DNA of 34,725 nucleotides from an uncultured Granulicella sp. Lineage in GTDB: Bacteria; Acidobacteriota; Terriglobia; Terriglobales; Acidobacteriaceae. The notes beneath the pieces are model-generated. The model saw only the letters and a program-made list of their open reading frames with translations, was not told the DNA's origin and did not search any database. Each line of letters starts with the position of its first letter. Positions within the stretch are counted from its first letter, which is position 1. Position numbers and translations under genes: made by a program. Of this stretch, positions 3,653 through 28,092 are shown one piece after another. Location: NCBI GenBank assembly GCA_937871785.1, contig CALMON010000141.1:1-34725 (forward strand). The letters are read 5' to 3'.

Positions 3653-3799
3653 CCTTCAGGGCTGAAGGACCGACATATACCAGCCTAGGCCGAAGGCCTA
3701 GGTGGAAAGGGGGTACAAAGGCCGAGCGCTAAAGGCGCGACATACAGGTCCTGGCCTGATGTCTGGGCTAAAGCCCAGACCTATCCAGAAGCAAAGACA
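3653..3799. repeat. intergenic hairpin array (REP-like dispersed element), copy 1
   Basis: Successive palindromes CCTTCAG-GG-CTGAAGG, CCTAGGCC-GAA-GGCCTAGG, GTCTGGGCTAAAGCCCAGAC separated by GACATA(T)AC spacers; 3758-3797 recurs inverted at 11432-11471. Confidence 0.8.
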
Positions 3800-5655: not shown

Positions 5656-6471
5656 ATGGACGTCTTATATGGCCTGCACCCTGTGGAAGAGGCCCTTCGC
5701 GCGGGAACCCGGCCGCTCGATCACGTCAGCGTCGCCCGCGAGCGCGAGGCTCGCCGCGATCCGCGGATGGACGCGGTGCTGGCCCTGTGCCGCCAGGCGG
5801 GCGTGCGCGTGACGACCGAGCCGCGCGAACTATTGACCCGCCACTGCCGCACCGACGCGCACCAGGGCATCGTGGCCTTTCTGCGCGAACGGAAGCTGCT
5901 GGCGCTCGAAGACCTGCTCCGCGCGCCGAAGGGGCCTTCGGGCTTCCACTTTTTTCTGGCTCTCGACGGCGTGGAAGACCCGCACAACTATGGAGCGCTG
6001 CTGCGGTCGGCCGATGGCGCGGGCATCGACGGCGTGGTGGTGCCGGAGCGGCGGTCGGCTCCGCTTTCGGCGGTGGCCGCGAAGAGCTCGGCGGGGGCCT
6101 CCGAGCATGTGCGCATTGCGCAGGTGACGAACGTGACGCGCGCGCTCGAAGCGATGAAGAAGCAAAATGTCTGGATCGTCGGGCTCGACGAGCGCGGCAC
6201 GCCGGACTACACGGATTTCGATTTTCGCCAGGACTGCTGCCTGGTGCTGGGCAGCGAAGGCAGCGGTCTGCACGAGCTGGTGAAACGCACCTGCGACCAT
6301 CTGCTGCGCATTCCGATGGCGGGTAGCGTGTCGTCACTGAACGTGTCCGTGGCCGGGGCGGTGGTGATGTATGAGGCGATGCGGCAGCGCCGGGTGGGGC
6401 CGGGCCGCGCGACCGGGCAGGCACCGCAGGCGCCGCAGCCGGCCAAGCCGCGCAAGGGCCTGGGGTCTTGA
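5656..6471 (+). CDS. rlmB: TrmH/SpoU-family RNA 2'-O-methyltransferase (RlmB-like)
   Basis: VLYGLHPVEEALR N-terminus; DGVEDPHNYGALLRSADGAGIDGVV; LVLGSEGSGL; IPMAGSVSSLNVSVAGAVVMYE SPOUT knot motifs. Confidence 0.93.
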   Translation: MDVLYGLHPVEEALRAGTRPLDHVSVAREREARRDPRMDAVLALCRQAGVRVTTEPRELLTRHCRTDAHQGIVAFLRERKLLALEDLLRAPKGPSGFHFFLALDGVEDPHNYGALLRSADGAGIDGVVVPERRSAPLSAVAAKSSAGASEHVRIAQVTNVTRALEAMKKQNVWIVGLDERGTPDYTDFDFRQDCCLVLGSEGSGLHELVKRTCDHLLRIPMAGSVSSLNVSVAGAVVMYEAMRQRRVGPGRATGQAPQAPQPAKPRKGLGS

Positions 6472-8582
6472 GCCCGAGCCGGCAGCCCCCGATGCCTGTC
6501 CGGAACGTCCAACGCACGATGTCTTTTGTTCGCGTTCCTGTCTTTCTTTTGTCGGGTGTGCTTTGCCCGGCATTGCTGGCAAGCCCGGCTTCCGCGCAAA
6601 CTTCCGCCCCGGCGCCGCATCAGGTTGAGCCCCAGACCGAGGCCACTCCCCGAAAAGGCGAGATCGTGGTGCAAAGCCACGGTGAGCCGCCGGAACCGCA
6701 GACCGTACCCCCATCGACCACAGCAGGGGCAGCCGTAACGACCGTCAAGCCGGAAGAAAACGCTGTCCCAGACCTTACCGACGTCGAGCGCGCCGCCATC
6801 CGCTTCACGGCCTACGATCTGGACGCGAGGCTGACGCCGGCTAGCTCCAGTCTCGCGATGCGGGCGCGGTTGACGGTTCGCAACGTGAGGACGGTTCCGC
6901 TAAAGGCGCTGGCGCTGCAGGTTTCCTCGTCGCTGCGGTGGGAAAGCGTGACGCTCGAAAGCGGCGCGGCGCGCGTGAAGCTGCCGCTGGCGCAGCACCT
7001 GCTGGAAACCGACGCGGACCATACCGGGCAGGTGTCTGAAGCTGTCATAACGCTCCCGGAGCCGCTCGCCCCGGGAGCGTCGGTGCGGTTGGACACATTT
7101 TACTCCGGCACGGTCGCCCAGAACGCGACGCGCCTGCAGCGGCTGGGCGCGAACGACGCGGCCGGCAAGGAAGCCGATTGGGACGCGATCGGCGCGGGAG
7201 GCGACGGGCCCGGGACTTCGACCGCGCTGCGCGGCTTCGGCGACGTGCTTTGGTATCCGGTGAGCGCGCCGCAGCTTTTTCTGGGGCAGGGAGCGCAGTT
7301 ATTTGAGGCCGCCGGCCGCTTGAGGCTCGCCAATGTCGCCACGGCCGTGCACCTGCGCCTGGCGGTGGATTACCTGGGCGACCCGCCCAGCGCGGCGTAC
7401 TTCTGCGGCCGCCGCCGCGCGCTGACGGCGGCCAGCGACAACGCGGACGCTCCCGTGGTGAGCTCGCCCGGGGTGGCTACGGCCGATTTTCCGGAGTCTC
7501 CGCTCGGCTTCAGGACGCTGAGCCTGTTTGTGATCGACTCGCCGGAAACGCTGCTGCCGGAAGCGGGGCAGTCAGCCCCGGCCGCTCCGCCGCTGGCGGT
7601 CGAGTCGGGCAAAACGGCCGTTTTCCCGCTGCTGGTGGCCAGTTCCACCGACGCTGCCGCGGTGATCACGGACTGGCTCGGGCCGAAGCCGCTTTCGTCC
7701 CTCGCGATCCTCGACCATGCCGGCCAGCCGTTTGAGGATGGTCCGCTGCTGGTGGCTCCGCTCTCGGCGCTGGCGGGGGCCGACGCCGCGCCGGCGCTGA
7801 CGCACAGCCTGACCCACGCCTGGGTGCAGACGGGCGTGCCCTGGATGGACGAGGGGCTGGCGCAATTGATGGTGTTGCTGGCGGTTGAGCGCAGCCGCGG
7901 TCGCGAAGCGGCGGAAGCGCAGCTTCAGGCGCTGGTGCAGCCCCTGGCTCTGGGTGACGTGGCTCCGAAGGCGGCCACTGCTGCTCCAGAAGGTGTTGGC
8001 ATCCCCCCAGCGAGCCTCGACAGCCAGCCGCAGGCGCAAGCGCTCACCGAGGCCTCAAGCGATATCTTTTACCGGCGCAAGGCCGCGGCCGTCTGGTGGA
8101 TGCTGCGCGACCTTGCCGGCGAAGAGCCGCTGAAGCTTGCCTTGCAGGCCTGGCGAGTGCAACCCGCTTCAAAGGAAGGCGCGGTGGCGCAGACGAAGGG
8201 GTTCGAAGCGCTGCTCGAAAAAGTCAGCGGCAAGGACCTGCGCTGGTTTTTCGACGATTGGGTGTTCCGCGACGTGGGTCTGCCCGACCTGACTATCGCC
8301 GAGGTGACTCCCCGTGAACTGGAGTCTTCGACAGGGCGCAAAACCGGCTGGCTGGTCGCGGTGACGGTTCGGAATGATGGCGCCGCCGCCGCGGATGTGC
8401 CCGTCATCGTGCGAGCCAGCGGGCTTAGCGCCACAGCGCGCATACGCGTTCCGGGCTTCGGCAGTGTCACGCAGCGCGTGCTGGTGGAAGCTCCGCCGAC
8501 CGAGGTCATCGTGAACGATGGGACCACTCCCGAGCAGCGGACGTCGCTGCACACCAAGGACGTGGTGGTGCGAGCCAAGTAG
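6468..8582 (+). CDS. secreted M1-aminopeptidase-like protein, probably catalytically degenerate
   Basis: Signal peptide (FLLSGVLCPALLASPASAQ); M1-like segment LTHSLTHAW...WMDEGLAQLM; TTG start at 6468 or a later ATG (6492 or 6519). Confidence 0.75.
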   Translation: MSPSRQPPMPVRNVQRTMSFVRVPVFLLSGVLCPALLASPASAQTSAPAPHQVEPQTEATPRKGEIVVQSHGEPPEPQTVPPSTTAGAAVTTVKPEENAVPDLTDVERAAIRFTAYDLDARLTPASSSLAMRARLTVRNVRTVPLKALALQVSSSLRWESVTLESGAARVKLPLAQHLLETDADHTGQVSEAVITLPEPLAPGASVRLDTFYSGTVAQNATRLQRLGANDAAGKEADWDAIGAGGDGPGTSTALRGFGDVLWYPVSAPQLFLGQGAQLFEAAGRLRLANVATAVHLRLAVDYLGDPPSAAYFCGRRRALTAASDNADAPVVSSPGVATADFPESPLGFRTLSLFVIDSPETLLPEAGQSAPAAPPLAVESGKTAVFPLLVASSTDAAAVITDWLGPKPLSSLAILDHAGQPFEDGPLLVAPLSALAGADAAPALTHSLTHAWVQTGVPWMDEGLAQLMVLLAVERSRGREAAEAQLQALVQPLALGDVAPKAATAAPEGVGIPPASLDSQPQAQALTEASSDIFYRRKAAAVWWMLRDLAGEEPLKLALQAWRVQPASKEGAVAQTKGFEALLEKVSGKDLRWFFDDWVFRDVGLPDLTIAEVTPRELESSTGRKTGWLVAVTVRNDGAAAADVPVIVRASGLSATARIRVPGFGSVTQRVLVEAPPTEVIVNDGTTPEQRTSLHTKDVVVRAK

Positions 8583-16720: not shown

Positions 16721-16835
16721 AAGTTGTTTCAGATGGTGACGGAGGTGTTGCCGTTGTGTCCGGTCGCGGCTTCCGTACGATCTTCGCTTTCGGGCCCCGC
16801 GTTGACCCGGCGGAGGGCAAAACCGTATAGTTTCG

Positions 16836-17004
16836 GTATCTGGTGTTCGGGAAGACGGTGGGAATCCGTCGCTACCGCGTAACTGTATTCGCTGAGAGCA
16901 GGGCAATTTGTTGAGGTCACTGGAACGAGTTTCGTTCCGGGAAGGCCGCCCTTGAAGTTGATGGACGCTCGTCGAGGCGTAAGTCAGGAGACCGGCCAGG
17001 TAAG
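16836..17004 (+). ncRNA. cobalamin riboswitch 1 (upstream of cobU/cbiA)
   Basis: GTTCGGGAAGACGGTGGGAATCCGTCGCTACCGCGTAACTGT, GTCACTGG...GGGAAGGCC, B12 box AAGTCAGGAGACCGGCC at 16981-16997; P1 TATCTGG/CCAGGTA. Confidence 0.95.
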
Positions 17005-17298
17005 GTGCGCAAGCTACCTGTTCGTGCGATTCGGGAAGAGGAGTTCGGTACCGTTTTCCATGAGGGAAACGGACATGAGTCTCCCCGCTCGGGAAACACC
17101 CACAGGGGTCTTGCGCTGGGCTTGCTTCAACTTCGCGAGGAGAGTTGAAGAGCATCGCTCGCCGCGCCCTTGGGGGCACGGGAGCACCGCTGCCTCCTGG
17201 TTTCGAATCCCGCTCTGCGTCCCCGTCCTTTGTTGAGAGGGGGGCGCAAGGAGCGACGTGCTTTGCCGGAAGATGTGCGGCCGCGCAGGGAAAAATCC

Positions 17299-19296
17299 GT
17301 GACGTTGGTGCTGGGCGGAGTTCGCAGCGGCAAAAGCCGCTACGCGCAGGCTTTCGCCGAACCGTTTGCCCGCGTCACGTTTGTGGCCACCGCCCGCTTC
17401 GACGTGGGCGACCCGGAAATGGCCGCGAAGATCGGGCGGCACCGCGTCGACCGGCCGGGCCATTGGCAGACGGTAGAGGAACCGCTGGAGTTGGCGCGAG
17501 TGGTCGCAGCGGCAGCGGAAGGCGGCTGCGTCGTGATCGACTGCCTGACGCTGTTTGCGGCCAATCTGCTGGAAGCCTGCGGCCGCGACCGGGTGAGTCT
17601 GGAGGCGCGGGTCGCCGGCTTGTGCGACGCGCTGCGCACGGCGGCGGTGCCGGTGGTGCTGGTGTCGAACGAGGTCGGCAGCGGGGTGGTTCCGGCGTAT
17701 GCGTCGGGCCGGCGTTTTCGCGATCTGGTGGGCGAACTGAACCAGCGCGTGGCGGCGGTCGCGGATAGCGTGGTGTACCTGGTGGCGGGGCTGCCGATGG
17801 TGCTCAAAGGGCAAGCGCCCACTTTTTTCGGGACAGATCATGAGACAAAAAAGGGCGTTGAATCCGACGAATTTGTTGGGAGTCGCAAGGGGGGCTGCCT
17901 GATCGCCGGCTCCGCGAGCGGCGTGGGCAAAACGACCGTGGCGCTGGCGATCGTTGCCGGTCTGCGGCGGCGCGGCGTGCGGGTGCAGCCGTTCAAGGGA
18001 GGGCCCGACTTCCTGGACACCGGACACCTGACGCGGATCGCCCGCCGCACGGCGCGCAACGTGGATACCTGGATGCTGTCGCCCGAGGCGAACGTAAAAG
18101 CGGTGCGTGCGGCTGCGGCGGATGCCGACTTCGTGCTGATCGAAGGCATGATGGGGCTGTTCGACGGCAAAAGCGGAGAGACCGACGCGGGCAGCAGCGC
18201 GGAGATCGCCCGGCTGCTGCGGCTGCCGGTGGTTCTGGTGGTCGACGCCGGCAAAAGCGCGCGCAGCCTGGCGGCGGTGGTGCTGGGTTTTGAGATGTTC
18301 GACGCGGCGACGCCGCTGGCCGGGGTGATTCTGAACCGCGTCGCGAGCGAGCGGCACTACGCGATGCTGGCCGCGGCTATCGGGCAGCGTTGCCGCACGC
18401 CAATCCTTGGCTGGCTGCCGCGTGAGCCGGCCATTGCCATTCCGGAGCGGCACCTGGGCCTGCGCACGGCGGAAGAAAGCGGCGGCGACCCTGAGGCGGA
18501 AACCGATCGCCTGGCCGCGCTGGCCGAGCGGTATCTGGACCTCGACGCGCTTGCGACGCTTGATTGCGGACTGCCGTTTCATGCCGCCGCCGTAGAAGCT
18601 CCGTCGGGAGGCGGCTTGCGCGTGCGCATCGGCGTCGCGCGGGACGCGGCGTTCTCGTTTTACTACGAAGACAATTTCGACCTGCTGCGTGAACAAGGGG
18701 CGGAGCTGGTCGAGTTCAGTCCGTTAGCCGACCCTCGCCTGCCGGAAAACCTCGACGCCCTGTACATTGGCGGCGGGTACCCGGAGCTCCATGTGGCGCA
18801 ACTGGCTGACAACCTGTCCATGCTGGCGGACATCCGCGAGTTTGCCGCGCAGGGAAGGCCAGTCTACGCCGAGTGCGGCGGCATGATGCTGCTGGGCGAG
18901 AGCCTGTCTGTGCTCAATCAGCCGCCGGGTTCCGGCGCGGTGGACTACGCCATGGCGGGGGTGCTTCCGCTGCGCCTGGAGATGACCGGCAAGCTGGTCA
19001 AGTTCGGCTATGTGACCGCCGAGTTCACCCGCGACTGCCTGCTGGGCGCGGCGGGAACCACCGCGCGCGGCCATAGCTTTCACTACTCGCGGCTGGTGGG
19101 CGAGCCCACCCTAGAAACGGCCTATCGCGTGCGCTACTCCCTTTCCGGCAAGGACGAAAAGGAAGGATTTACAGCAGGCAATGTGCTGGCGAGCTATGTG
19201 CATCTCCACTTCGGCGCGGCGCCTGCGCTGGCGAAGAGCTTTGTCGCGGCGGCGCAGGCAGCCAAGGGGCAGCGGCGGGTCTTGGTTCAAGTGTGA
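17299..19296 (+). CDS. cobU/cbiA: in-frame CobU-CbiA: adenosylcobinamide kinase/guanylyltransferase joined to cobyrinate a,c-diamide synthase
   Basis: CobU P-loop LVLGGVRSGKSRYAQ, ATARFDVGDPEM..RIGRHR-like, VVLVSNEVGSGVVP; then CbiA IAGSASGVGKTTVALA, PFKGGPDFLDTGHL, EGMMGLFDG, YIGGGYPELH, YAECGGMMLLG, HSFHYS. Start GTG 17299 or TTG 17263 or 17170. Confidence 0.93.
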   Translation: MTLVLGGVRSGKSRYAQAFAEPFARVTFVATARFDVGDPEMAAKIGRHRVDRPGHWQTVEEPLELARVVAAAAEGGCVVIDCLTLFAANLLEACGRDRVSLEARVAGLCDALRTAAVPVVLVSNEVGSGVVPAYASGRRFRDLVGELNQRVAAVADSVVYLVAGLPMVLKGQAPTFFGTDHETKKGVESDEFVGSRKGGCLIAGSASGVGKTTVALAIVAGLRRRGVRVQPFKGGPDFLDTGHLTRIARRTARNVDTWMLSPEANVKAVRAAAADADFVLIEGMMGLFDGKSGETDAGSSAEIARLLRLPVVLVVDAGKSARSLAAVVLGFEMFDAATPLAGVILNRVASERHYAMLAAAIGQRCRTPILGWLPREPAIAIPERHLGLRTAEESGGDPEAETDRLAALAERYLDLDALATLDCGLPFHAAAVEAPSGGGLRVRIGVARDAAFSFYYEDNFDLLREQGAELVEFSPLADPRLPENLDALYIGGGYPELHVAQLADNLSMLADIREFAAQGRPVYAECGGMMLLGESLSVLNQPPGSGAVDYAMAGVLPLRLEMTGKLVKFGYVTAEFTRDCLLGAAGTTARGHSFHYSRLVGEPTLETAYRVRYSLSGKDEKEGFTAGNVLASYVHLHFGAAPALAKSFVAAAQAAKGQRRVLVQV

Positions 19297-20217: not shown

Positions 20218-20257
20218 ATTCTTGAGCCGGGTTTGTTCTCCGGTTCTGCCACCACAA

Positions 20258-20420
20258 CCACAGCAGGGTGTCGGGAAGCGCGGTGCGAATCCGCCACTAC
20301 CCCGTAACTGTAAGCGCCGAGAGCTTGTGCAGGATGTATTCACGTCACTGGGGCCGAACGGCCCTGGGAAGACAGCACATCGCTCGTTGACGCGCGAAGC
20401 CAGGAGACCGGCCCTGCTGC
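20258..20420 (+). ncRNA. cobalamin riboswitch 2 (upstream of btuB operon)
   Basis: GTGTCGGGAAGCGCGGTGCGAATCCGCCACTACCCCGTAACTGT, CGTCACTGGG...CTGGGAAG, B12 box GAAGCCAGGAGACCGGCC; P1 CAGCAGGG/CCCTGCTG. Confidence 0.96.
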
Positions 20421-20448
20421 CACAGAAAGACTCCCGAGGGGGAACACC

Positions 20449-22995
20449 ATGAAGACACAACGATTTTGCCGTGCCCGAGCACGCACGTACTACGCCGCGG
20501 GGAGCCTGGTGCTGGCTGCTTCAACAATTTCCGCCCAGGTGACGGGCAACACGGCGGCCCCGGTGCAGGTGAGCAAACTGTCCGACCGCACCGCCGCGCG
20601 CGGCACCGTCCACGGCAGGGTTCTGGACCCGCTGGGCGCGGCTGTGGCCGGAGCCAGGGTAGAGCTGCTGTCAGGCGAAACGGTGGTGGCTTCAGCCGTC
20701 GCCGATGGGAGCGGTTTTTACCAGGTGAGCCTGCTGAAGAGCGGCGATTTCCGCCTGCGTTCCGGCGCGGCGAGCTTTGAGCCATCGCTTACCAGTCCGC
20801 GTTATTTCTCCGCAGGCGCCTCTACAGCGATCGACCTGACCGTGGCGACGCCGACCGACACCGAGCAGATCACCGTGACCGCCACCGGAACGCCAACGCC
20901 CATCGCGCAGGTGGCCGGCTCCGTGACGGTGTTGAACGACGACCAGTTTTCGCATGTGCGCGACCTCCAGGAGCCGCTGCGCTACGTTTCCGGCGTGCAG
21001 ATCACGCAGACCGGCCAGGCCGGCGGTACCACCGGCCTGCGCATCCGCGGCTCCAACACGAACGCGAGCAAAGTAGTGATCGACGGCATCAGCGTGAACG
21101 ATCTGGGCGGCGCGGCGGAGTTCGCCAACATTGCCAGTGCGGGCATCGCGCGGATCGAGGTATTGCGTGAACCGGACAGCGCGCTGTATGGGTCCGACGC
21201 CCTGGCCGGGGTCGTGTCGTTCACCACGCGGCGCGGCGGCACACCGCTGCCGCTGATTGACTATGAGGGCGATGCCGGCAACTTCCACACCTACCGGCAG
21301 GAAGCGTCGGTTTCGGGCGCGTCGCATCGCTTCGACTACTTCCTCGACGGCGCGCGCCAGGACACGGGCAACAACCTGCCCAACGACGAATTCCACAATG
21401 CGACGTTCGCCGACAACGTGGGCTTTCAACCGAACGCGACGACCGACCTGCGCTTCACGTTCCGGCATGTTTCAGCCGAAGGCGGCAAGCCGAACGCGAC
21501 GGCGCTGTACGGCATTCCGGACTCGGCGTTCTCGACCGAGCATGACCTCGTGATTGGCGGCACGCTGGACAGCCGCACCACCGACCGCTGGCACAACGTG
21601 CTGCGCTACGGCGGCCTGCGACTGAACTACCAGTACAACAAGCTGGCCCTGGCGGGGATACCGGTTTATACGACGAGCAAGGGCGTCACCAGCATTACCA
21701 GCTACCTGGGCGCTCCGGTCACGATCGTCGGAGCAAACGGCTACAAGGTGAGTGGGCAGGCGACGCTGAACTTCAACCCAAGCTCCCTGGGTACCACGAC
21801 CAACCGGAGCCAGCGCGATTTCGTGTACGGGCAAACAGACTACCGGCTGGATGGGCTGTTCGGCGCGAACTCGCACACGCTGCTGCTGGCCGGCTTCACG
21901 TATACGGATGAGCGCGGCACGGGCATCAGCTCGACGCCGGCGAACCCGAATCCGGCGTACACGCCGGTGGAACGCGGCAACTACTCGACCGCGCTCGAGA
22001 TCAAGGGGGATGCGGCCGGGCGCTTCTTTTACACAGTGGGCACAGGGCTTGAAGACAACGCGGTCTATGGTTTTGCAGCCACGCCGCGCGGGTCGGCGGC
22101 GTATTACCTGGTGCGGCCTTCCAACAACAGCTTTCTGAACGGGACCAAGCTGCATACGAGTTTTTCGAAAGGCATCAAGGGACCGAGCATTTATATTCAG
22201 CAGCACTCGCTGTACTCGCTGATACTGCCCACCAACCCTACGCTCGTGCAGCAGGACAACATCGCGCAGGTCGGTGCGGAGCAGGCGCGCAGCTATGACG
22301 GCGGCGTCGACCAGGAGATCGGTCACGGACGCGCGCGTATCGGTGCAACGTACTTCCACAATGAGTATGGCAACGGCCTGGAGTTCGTATCGCAGGCAAA
22401 CCTGATCGCTACTGGATTTGCCGATGCAAGCAACACGGCGATCAACGGCGGCGCGTACGTCAACAGCCTGGCTTATCGCACGCAGGGGCTTGAGGTGGAA
22501 ATTGAATCCAAGCTCGGCGCTCATCTGTTCGCGCGCGGCGGCTACACGCTGACGGACGGTACGGTGCAGAGATCTTTTGCGTCGTCTGCGCTGAAGCCCA
22601 GCATCAACCCGCTCTTCCCCGGCATCCCGATCGGCACCGGGCCGTTGGTGGGTGGTCGTCCTTTTCGTGTCGCGCGCAACAGCGGCTACTTTGGCCTGCA
22701 GTACACCCGGTCGCGCTGGAACGCGCAACTGAACGGCACGCTGGTAGGGTTCCGCGACGACTCGGATTTTTTGTCAGGCAATCTCATTCTGCCGAACCAC
22801 AATCTGGACGGGCAGTATCAACGGCTGGAGCTTACGGGCGAGTATCGCGTGTCGCACCATCTGTCGGCGTACGTTGAGGCGCAAAACCTGCTTAGCGAGC
22901 GCTACACGGAGGCGTTTGGGTACCCGGCGCTGCCGTTCAACTTTCGGTCGGGGTTGCGCGTTTCGTTTGGTGGAGAATCGTGGAAACTGAAGTAG
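20449..22995 (+). CDS. btuB: TonB-dependent corrinoid receptor with N-terminal carboxypeptidase-regulatory-like domain
   Basis: CarboxypepD_reg-like GRVLDPLGAAVAGARVELLSG; TonB box TEQITVTATGTP; plug GLRIRGSNTNASKVVIDGISVND; C-terminal barrel; immediately downstream of riboswitch 2. Confidence 0.9.
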   Translation: MKTQRFCRARARTYYAAGSLVLAASTISAQVTGNTAAPVQVSKLSDRTAARGTVHGRVLDPLGAAVAGARVELLSGETVVASAVADGSGFYQVSLLKSGDFRLRSGAASFEPSLTSPRYFSAGASTAIDLTVATPTDTEQITVTATGTPTPIAQVAGSVTVLNDDQFSHVRDLQEPLRYVSGVQITQTGQAGGTTGLRIRGSNTNASKVVIDGISVNDLGGAAEFANIASAGIARIEVLREPDSALYGSDALAGVVSFTTRRGGTPLPLIDYEGDAGNFHTYRQEASVSGASHRFDYFLDGARQDTGNNLPNDEFHNATFADNVGFQPNATTDLRFTFRHVSAEGGKPNATALYGIPDSAFSTEHDLVIGGTLDSRTTDRWHNVLRYGGLRLNYQYNKLALAGIPVYTTSKGVTSITSYLGAPVTIVGANGYKVSGQATLNFNPSSLGTTTNRSQRDFVYGQTDYRLDGLFGANSHTLLLAGFTYTDERGTGISSTPANPNPAYTPVERGNYSTALEIKGDAAGRFFYTVGTGLEDNAVYGFAATPRGSAAYYLVRPSNNSFLNGTKLHTSFSKGIKGPSIYIQQHSLYSLILPTNPTLVQQDNIAQVGAEQARSYDGGVDQEIGHGRARIGATYFHNEYGNGLEFVSQANLIATGFADASNTAINGGAYVNSLAYRTQGLEVEIESKLGAHLFARGGYTLTDGTVQRSFASSALKPSINPLFPGIPIGTGPLVGGRPFRVARNSGYFGLQYTRSRWNAQLNGTLVGFRDDSDFLSGNLILPNHNLDGQYQRLELTGEYRVSHHLSAYVEAQNLLSERYTEAFGYPALPFNFRSGLRVSFGGESWKLK

Positions 22996-26720: not shown

Positions 26721-27280
26721 CGGAGATCGTCTTCGTCCGGCACGCGACGACGGACCTGGCCGGGACGTTTTGCGGCCAGCTTGACCCGCCGTTGAACGCC
26801 TTGGGACGGGAACAGGCACGCGCGCTTGCGGCGGCGGGCGTGGCTCGCGGCGCCGGTGCCGTGTACGCGAGCGATCTTCTCCGCTCGCGCGAAACGGCGT
26901 CCGTGTTCGGGTTTCCGGTCACGCTGGATCCGGCGTGGCGAGAGATCGGCTTCGGTGCCTGGGAAGGCCTGACGTGGGCGGAGGTCGAAGCCCGGGACCG
27001 CGCATACGCGCAGCGCTGGGTGGACGAGTTTCCCCATTGCGCCGCTCCGGGAGGCGAGGCGTTTGAGGATTTCCGCGCAAGGGTATTACGAGCGGCCGAT
27101 GCCTTGCGGCACGAAGCGCCGAGCAAGGGTCGCGTGGCGGTGATCACGCACGGCGGCGTGCTGCGCGTGGTGCTTGAAACGGTGTGCGGCGTTCCTCCGG
27201 CAGAATCCTGGAAGCGGACGCGCGACTACGGTGCCGCCTTTCTGCTAACGGCCGATGGCCGTGCCGAGGCGATCGCATGA
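26717..27280 (+). CDS. cobC: alpha-ribazole phosphatase (histidine phosphatase family)
   Basis: EIVFVRHATTDLAGTFCGQLDPPLNALG, YASDLLRSRETA, WREIGFGAWEGLTWAEV, ITHGGVLR. Confidence 0.92.
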   Translation: MTEIVFVRHATTDLAGTFCGQLDPPLNALGREQARALAAAGVARGAGAVYASDLLRSRETASVFGFPVTLDPAWREIGFGAWEGLTWAEVEARDRAYAQRWVDEFPHCAAPGGEAFEDFRARVLRAADALRHEAPSKGRVAVITHGGVLRVVLETVCGVPPAESWKRTRDYGAAFLLTADGRAEAIA

Positions 27281-28092
27281 GCGGCCCGGCGGGGGTGACT
27301 GTGCGGGAGTTGGCGGCGTGGGGTTTCGACGCGTACGCGTACCGGCCGACGGAAATGCGAGCTTTGCCCACGGCTTCGGTGAGTGTCCGAGTCTCTCGTG
27401 AAGCGGCGGTCTCGGAGCTGTCGCCTACACTGCAAGCCGTTGCTGAAGGGCATAGAACTCGCGCCGATCTCCACTTCGAAATGCGCGGTCTCGACTGGTC
27501 GATCGCGGAGGTCGATCTCCGCGCGCTGCTGTCGTTTCAGCGCCGGGTGGCGTTCCCTCCGGAAGCTCTCGCGTCGGCGCTGCCCGCGGCGAACGACCCC
27601 GAGGGGCTCGTCTCGTTCTGCTTTCCCCCGTCGCGTTCCGTGGCGTACCACCTTCTCCCGCAGGAAGGAAGCGCGGCTGTCTTCGACTCGGTCGATCCGA
27701 ACCTGCAGCTTCGCGTCGACCCCGGCTCTGCGACGCCGCTTTCACTCTACGCGGGTAGCCCGTTTGTGGAGGCCGCGATGTTTGGCGGGCGGGTGTTTCT
27801 GCGCGACGGGTATCATCGGGCGTACCGGCTGTTGCGCGCCGGTGTCGTGCGGGTGCCGGCGATCGTTGTCCGGGCGCGCACGCTCGCCGAACTCGGCGCG
27901 GACAGGCCATGGTTTTTTCCGCCGGAGGTCCTGTTCTCAAACGACCCGCCGCGCGTGCGTGACTTCCTCGACGACGCGAAAACGATTTCCTACTCTCGGC
28001 CCGTCCTGCGCAAAAGGCTGCGTCTGATGGTGAAGGAAGAGCTTGTGCCTGAAGAGCTTACCTCGCAAGACAACAAAGGAGAACGACGATGA
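27277..28092 (+). CDS. uncharacterised protein X with ParB/sulfiredoxin-like DGYHR segment, inside B12 operon
   Basis: 271-aa ORF, ATG overlaps cobC stop and its stop overlaps pduO start; RVFLRDGYHRAYRLLRAGVVRVPAIVV resembles ParB/Srx-fold motif. Confidence 0.85.
   Translation: MSGPAGVTVRELAAWGFDAYAYRPTEMRALPTASVSVRVSREAAVSELSPTLQAVAEGHRTRADLHFEMRGLDWSIAEVDLRALLSFQRRVAFPPEALASALPAANDPEGLVSFCFPPSRSVAYHLLPQEGSAAVFDSVDPNLQLRVDPGSATPLSLYAGSPFVEAAMFGGRVFLRDGYHRAYRLLRAGVVRVPAIVVRARTLAELGADRPWFFPPEVLFSNDPPRVRDFLDDAKTISYSRPVLRKRLRLMVKEELVPEELTSQDNKGERR

Follow-up and report, generated by a model that had tools for sequence, protein, structure and literature searches.

A probable lineage-specific fusion of cobU and cbiA at a normally overlapping gene junction in an uncultured Granulicella

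In the Acidobacteriaceae (Granulicella, Edaphobacter, Terriglobus, and Silvibacterium), CobU and CbiA are encoded as two proteins by an adjacent gene pair with a stop-start overlap of 1-4 nt. The locus described here has the same genes, order, domains, and pathway as this pair, but encodes one protein with a 26-aa linker. Among fused cobalamin enzymes, bifunctional CobBC (NF053748) likewise joins CbiA/CobB to another enzyme of the pathway; however, the partner in the present protein was CobU at the N-terminus, and the score against the CobBC model (359.9 bits) was far under its cutoff of 950. A further system for comparison is the frameshift site of Escherichia coli dnaX, which is accompanied by an upstream Shine-Dalgarno-like sequence and a stable downstream hairpin. 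The junction here shared with dnaX the in-phase A AAA AAG and an early stop in the -1 frame, but neither of these two elements nor conservation was found here.

The window, i.e., the whole stretch of DNA analyzed (34,725 nt), is a contig of the draft genome of a soil-type acidobacterium (3.95 Mb, 269 contigs, 83% complete), probably binned from a metagenome. The features of the locus are as follows.

16824 to 17014, plus strand: cobalamin riboswitch upstream of the fused gene (Rfam RF00174, 86.9 bits)
17299 to 19296, plus strand: fused cobU-cbiA gene, 665 aa, GTG start, a single open frame with both domains complete
17299 to 17811, plus strand: CobU domain, with the C-terminal end GLPMVLKG, aligned over its full length with CobU of relatives
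17812 to 17889, plus strand: linker between the CobU and CbiA domains, 78 nt (26 aa), GC approximately 51%, absent from relatives
17823 to 17829, plus strand: T TTT TTC heptamer (T6 at 17823-17828), in the X_XXY_YYZ phase of the frame from GTG 17299
17840 to 17843, plus strand: out-of-frame ATGA, in which ATG 17840 overlaps TGA 17841
17847 to 17853, plus strand: A AAA AAG heptamer (A6 at 17847-17852), in the same X_XXY_YYZ phase of the frame from GTG 17299
17890 to 19296, plus strand: CbiA/CobB (cobyrinic acid a,c-diamide synthase) domain, with P-loop and GATase_3 parts, from profile matches

Both halves of the product were full-length members of their families. The Pfam profile of CobU matched residues 2-168 (E value of 7e-54), with 182.3 bits for PF02283 (curated cutoff of 27) and 175.1 bits for NF004469 (cutoff of 161), and the domain showed 56-70% identity to CobU of relatives in most pairs. 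The NCBIfam profile of CbiA/CobB matched residues 201-638 (approximately 200-640; E value of 2e-145), with 484.7 bits for NF002204 (cutoff of 254), 142.7 bits for PF07685, and 63.7 bits for PF13500; identity to the orthologs of the genus was 61-68%. No in-frame ATG, GTG, or TTG was found between 17800 and 17923 from which the CbiA part could start on its own. Thus, one open frame united two proteins that are separate neighbors in relatives. Elsewhere in the window, another cobalamin riboswitch (RF00174, 84.1 bits; 20249-20430, plus strand) was located directly upstream of a TonB-dependent receptor-like ORF (20449-22995), and a cob-cluster protein (27268-28092, plus strand) without a Pfam match had homologs at the same place in the clusters of relatives. 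An Acido-Lenti-1 RNA match (3658-3702, minus strand) scored 37.4, barely over the gathering score of 37, and a 97-nt tRNA-Ala predicted by ARAGORN (6393-6489, minus strand), which overlaps two successive ORFs at their end and start, respectively, was probably false.

The alignment of orthologous junctions, a check proposed in the initial annotation of this DNA, comprised 40 distinct junctions: that of the window and 39 adjacent cobU-cbiA pairs, nearly all from Acidobacteriaceae (Granulicella, Edaphobacter, and other members of the genus and family). The two genes were separate in all 39, with a 4-nt overlap (ATGA or GTGA) in 37 and a 1-nt overlap in two. The CobU-to-CbiA spacing of these relatives was 8, 11, 20, 23, or 26 nt, always 3n+2, against 78 nt (3n) in the window. 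Their CobU ended 2 to 8 residues past the LKG motif (+6 to +8 being usual), and their CbiA start abutted the first conserved strand (typically M/V-K/R-G-F/L-L). None of the 39 junctions contained a run of at least 6 nt or either heptamer. Searches of approximately 400 family genomes and of approximately 400 sampled across the phylum revealed no fused CobU-CbiA, and the plasmid matches listed were all annotated as separate genes; the fusion is, therefore, known from one genome only. Since 19 of the 28 same-genus genomes searched (several nearly complete) gave no cobU-cbiA match, the B12 pathway is patchy within the genus.

The linker itself was approximately 52 nt longer than the junction of the sister species (same-genus spacing of 26 nt), and this net gain is 3n+1 and, therefore, enough by itself to put both frames in register. 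Its GC content was 51% against 68% for the rest of the gene (GC3 of 0.48 against 0.82), and no 81-nt window in the rest of the fused gene was as GC-poor. No homolog of the linker was found in its own genome or in the genus. An inserted repeat or palindromic element was rejected as its source: the genome yielded no further copy, and both of the short matches from the genus sit in unrelated sequence. A conserved domain was also rejected: in an order-wide search with the linker region, good matches spanned little beyond the CbiA start. A hairpin pairing T6 with A6 (17814-17859; z of -1.91) was equaled in 8 of 200 shuffles, and encloses the runs, such that it is not a downstream stimulator; a terminator was ruled out by the wrong order of its parts, the T run lying ahead of the right arm.

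The reading of the linker given in the initial annotation was confirmed on the sequence, including the place and phase of both heptamers, the hidden ATGA, and the stops in the -1 frame (TGA 17841-17843 and TGA 17859-17861). Its description of the ATGA overlap as a device used throughout the operon was borne out in part: several cob genes overlap here, and the overlap is the rule at the cobU-cbiA junction of relatives. Two in-phase heptamers within 31 nt were unusual for the coding DNA of this genome because they are rare in approximately 247 kb of other long ORFs (TTTTTTC in phase five times and AAAAAAG once); the stretches sampled from other contigs of this genome totaled approximately 245 kb. 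In dinucleotide-preserving, stop-free shuffles of the linker, two strong in-phase runs appeared in approximately 0.4%, and an ATGA or GTGA near the orthologous place in approximately 12%, both figures being post hoc because the spot was picked for its runs. The ATGA at 17840-17843 is 29-32 nt past the LKG motif, against 24-27 nt for the overlap of same-genus relatives, an offset within 5 nt. This motif may derive from the stop-start overlap of the ancestor; however, since chance gives such a motif there at the frequency above, its position hints only faintly at this origin.

The phase of the two heptamers raised programmed -1 frameshifting, which would free CobU beside the fusion in the manner of dnaX gamma in E. 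coli. The -1 stops directly follow the sites, and both heptamers were shift-prone in E. coli tests, while the best V_VV.A_AA.G motifs without stimulators gave approximately 0.3% there (PMC4066793). On the other hand, the motifs were conserved in none of the 39 relatives. No GAGG, GGAG, AGGA, GGNGG, or AGGKG was present 6-17 nt upstream of either site, and RNA downstream of the sites was no better folded than shuffles (z of -0.18 and 0.40); such upstream and downstream stimulators are not obligatory in bacteria. Moreover, a -1 shift frees CobU but never CbiA alone, and in-phase TTTTTTC also occurred in other long ORFs, as counted above. Programmed frameshifting is, accordingly, very unlikely, and it is just as improbable that recoding at the linker runs, by -1 frameshifting or slippage, undoes a fresh fusion and thereby keeps up a supply of separate CobU.

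Slippage during transcription, at A6 or T6, would instead produce mRNAs of mixed length, such that a single gene would encode the fusion as well as the separate proteins; with one A added, CobU would terminate at TGA 17859 and ATG 17840 would become the start of CbiA. A and T runs are avoided in bacteria as slippage-prone, commonly from 9 nt, with a length that differs among bacteria (PMC1088944). The runs of 6 nt here were below this common, organism-dependent threshold and were not conserved in the 39 relatives, making slippage extremely improbable. Both forms of recoding had been put forward in the initial annotation, and neither gained comparative or contextual support.

The same runs may be explained by sequencing or assembly errors, another of the initial proposals. 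In this case, one or two true 7-nt runs (A7 alone, or T7 and A7) would have been written as 6, and cobU and cbiA would really be separate; CbiA, starting from ATG 17840, would then carry approximately 17-18 additional residues at its N-terminus. A single A7 by itself already splits the genes, T7 would end CobU at 10 residues past LKG, near the usual position, and the ATGA is close to that of the orthologous overlap. Nevertheless, the extension was missing in all 39 relatives, and the Shine-Dalgarno sequence before ATG 17840 was at background level (-4.0 kcal against a mean of -7.7 in relatives, with weaker values in three of the 39). The many short contigs and the 10-N gaps in those sampled suggest a short-read platform, on which runs of 6-7 nt are rarely miscalled. 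In the window, 11 further homopolymers of 6-7 nt sit in full-length ORFs, its remaining cob genes were unshifted relative to the proteins of three relatives, and a rough coding-phase scan of a 280-kb sample revealed, away from gaps, no convincing shift of 1 nt. Because of the short-read-like gaps, intact homopolymers, unshifted cob genes, and clean scan, undercalling is unlikely.

These results suggested that a genuine, lineage-specific cobU-cbiA fusion, caused by an indel at the overlapping junction, is the best explanation, and we consider it probable. The ancestor would have had separate cobU and cbiA with a 4-nt ATGA or GTGA overlap, presumably translationally coupled. An insertion or duplication-type indel at the junction, with the net gain relative to the sister species described above, would have removed the in-frame stop of CobU and, at the same time, aligned both reading frames, giving a single CobU-linker-CbiA polypeptide behind the cobalamin riboswitch. 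T6 and A6 would then be incidental pieces of an unconstrained AT-rich linker. If the ATGA at 17840 is a relic, an N-terminal insertion in CbiA together with small indels would be required; if not, a single insertion at the junction would suffice. The recent fusion by two 1-nt deletions envisaged in the initial annotation was, thus, correct as to a derived fusion at a junction that normally overlaps by 4 nt, but the deletions are not the whole story, in view of the longer linker and of a CbiA extension from ATG 17840 that no relative shares. Two points weigh against the fusion: it comes from a single draft genome without a close relative (the best CbiA match being 68% identical), and two undercalls would leave just such an out-of-frame ATGA near the ancestral place, with a homopolymer on each side. 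Production and function of the fused protein are inferred, as are the exact mutational steps. The fusion is probably tolerated or neutral, given that cobU and cbiA share a pathway and that their products were already synthesized next to each other.

The fusion, an ordinary if neat joining of neighboring genes, adds little new mechanism, and the recoding reading, which would matter more, is without support. Among the genomes searched, a CobU-CbiA fusion was met nowhere else. If real, it would represent a clean case in which two genes that overlapped, and were probably coupled, became fused, and for which dozens of relatives document the ancestral state.
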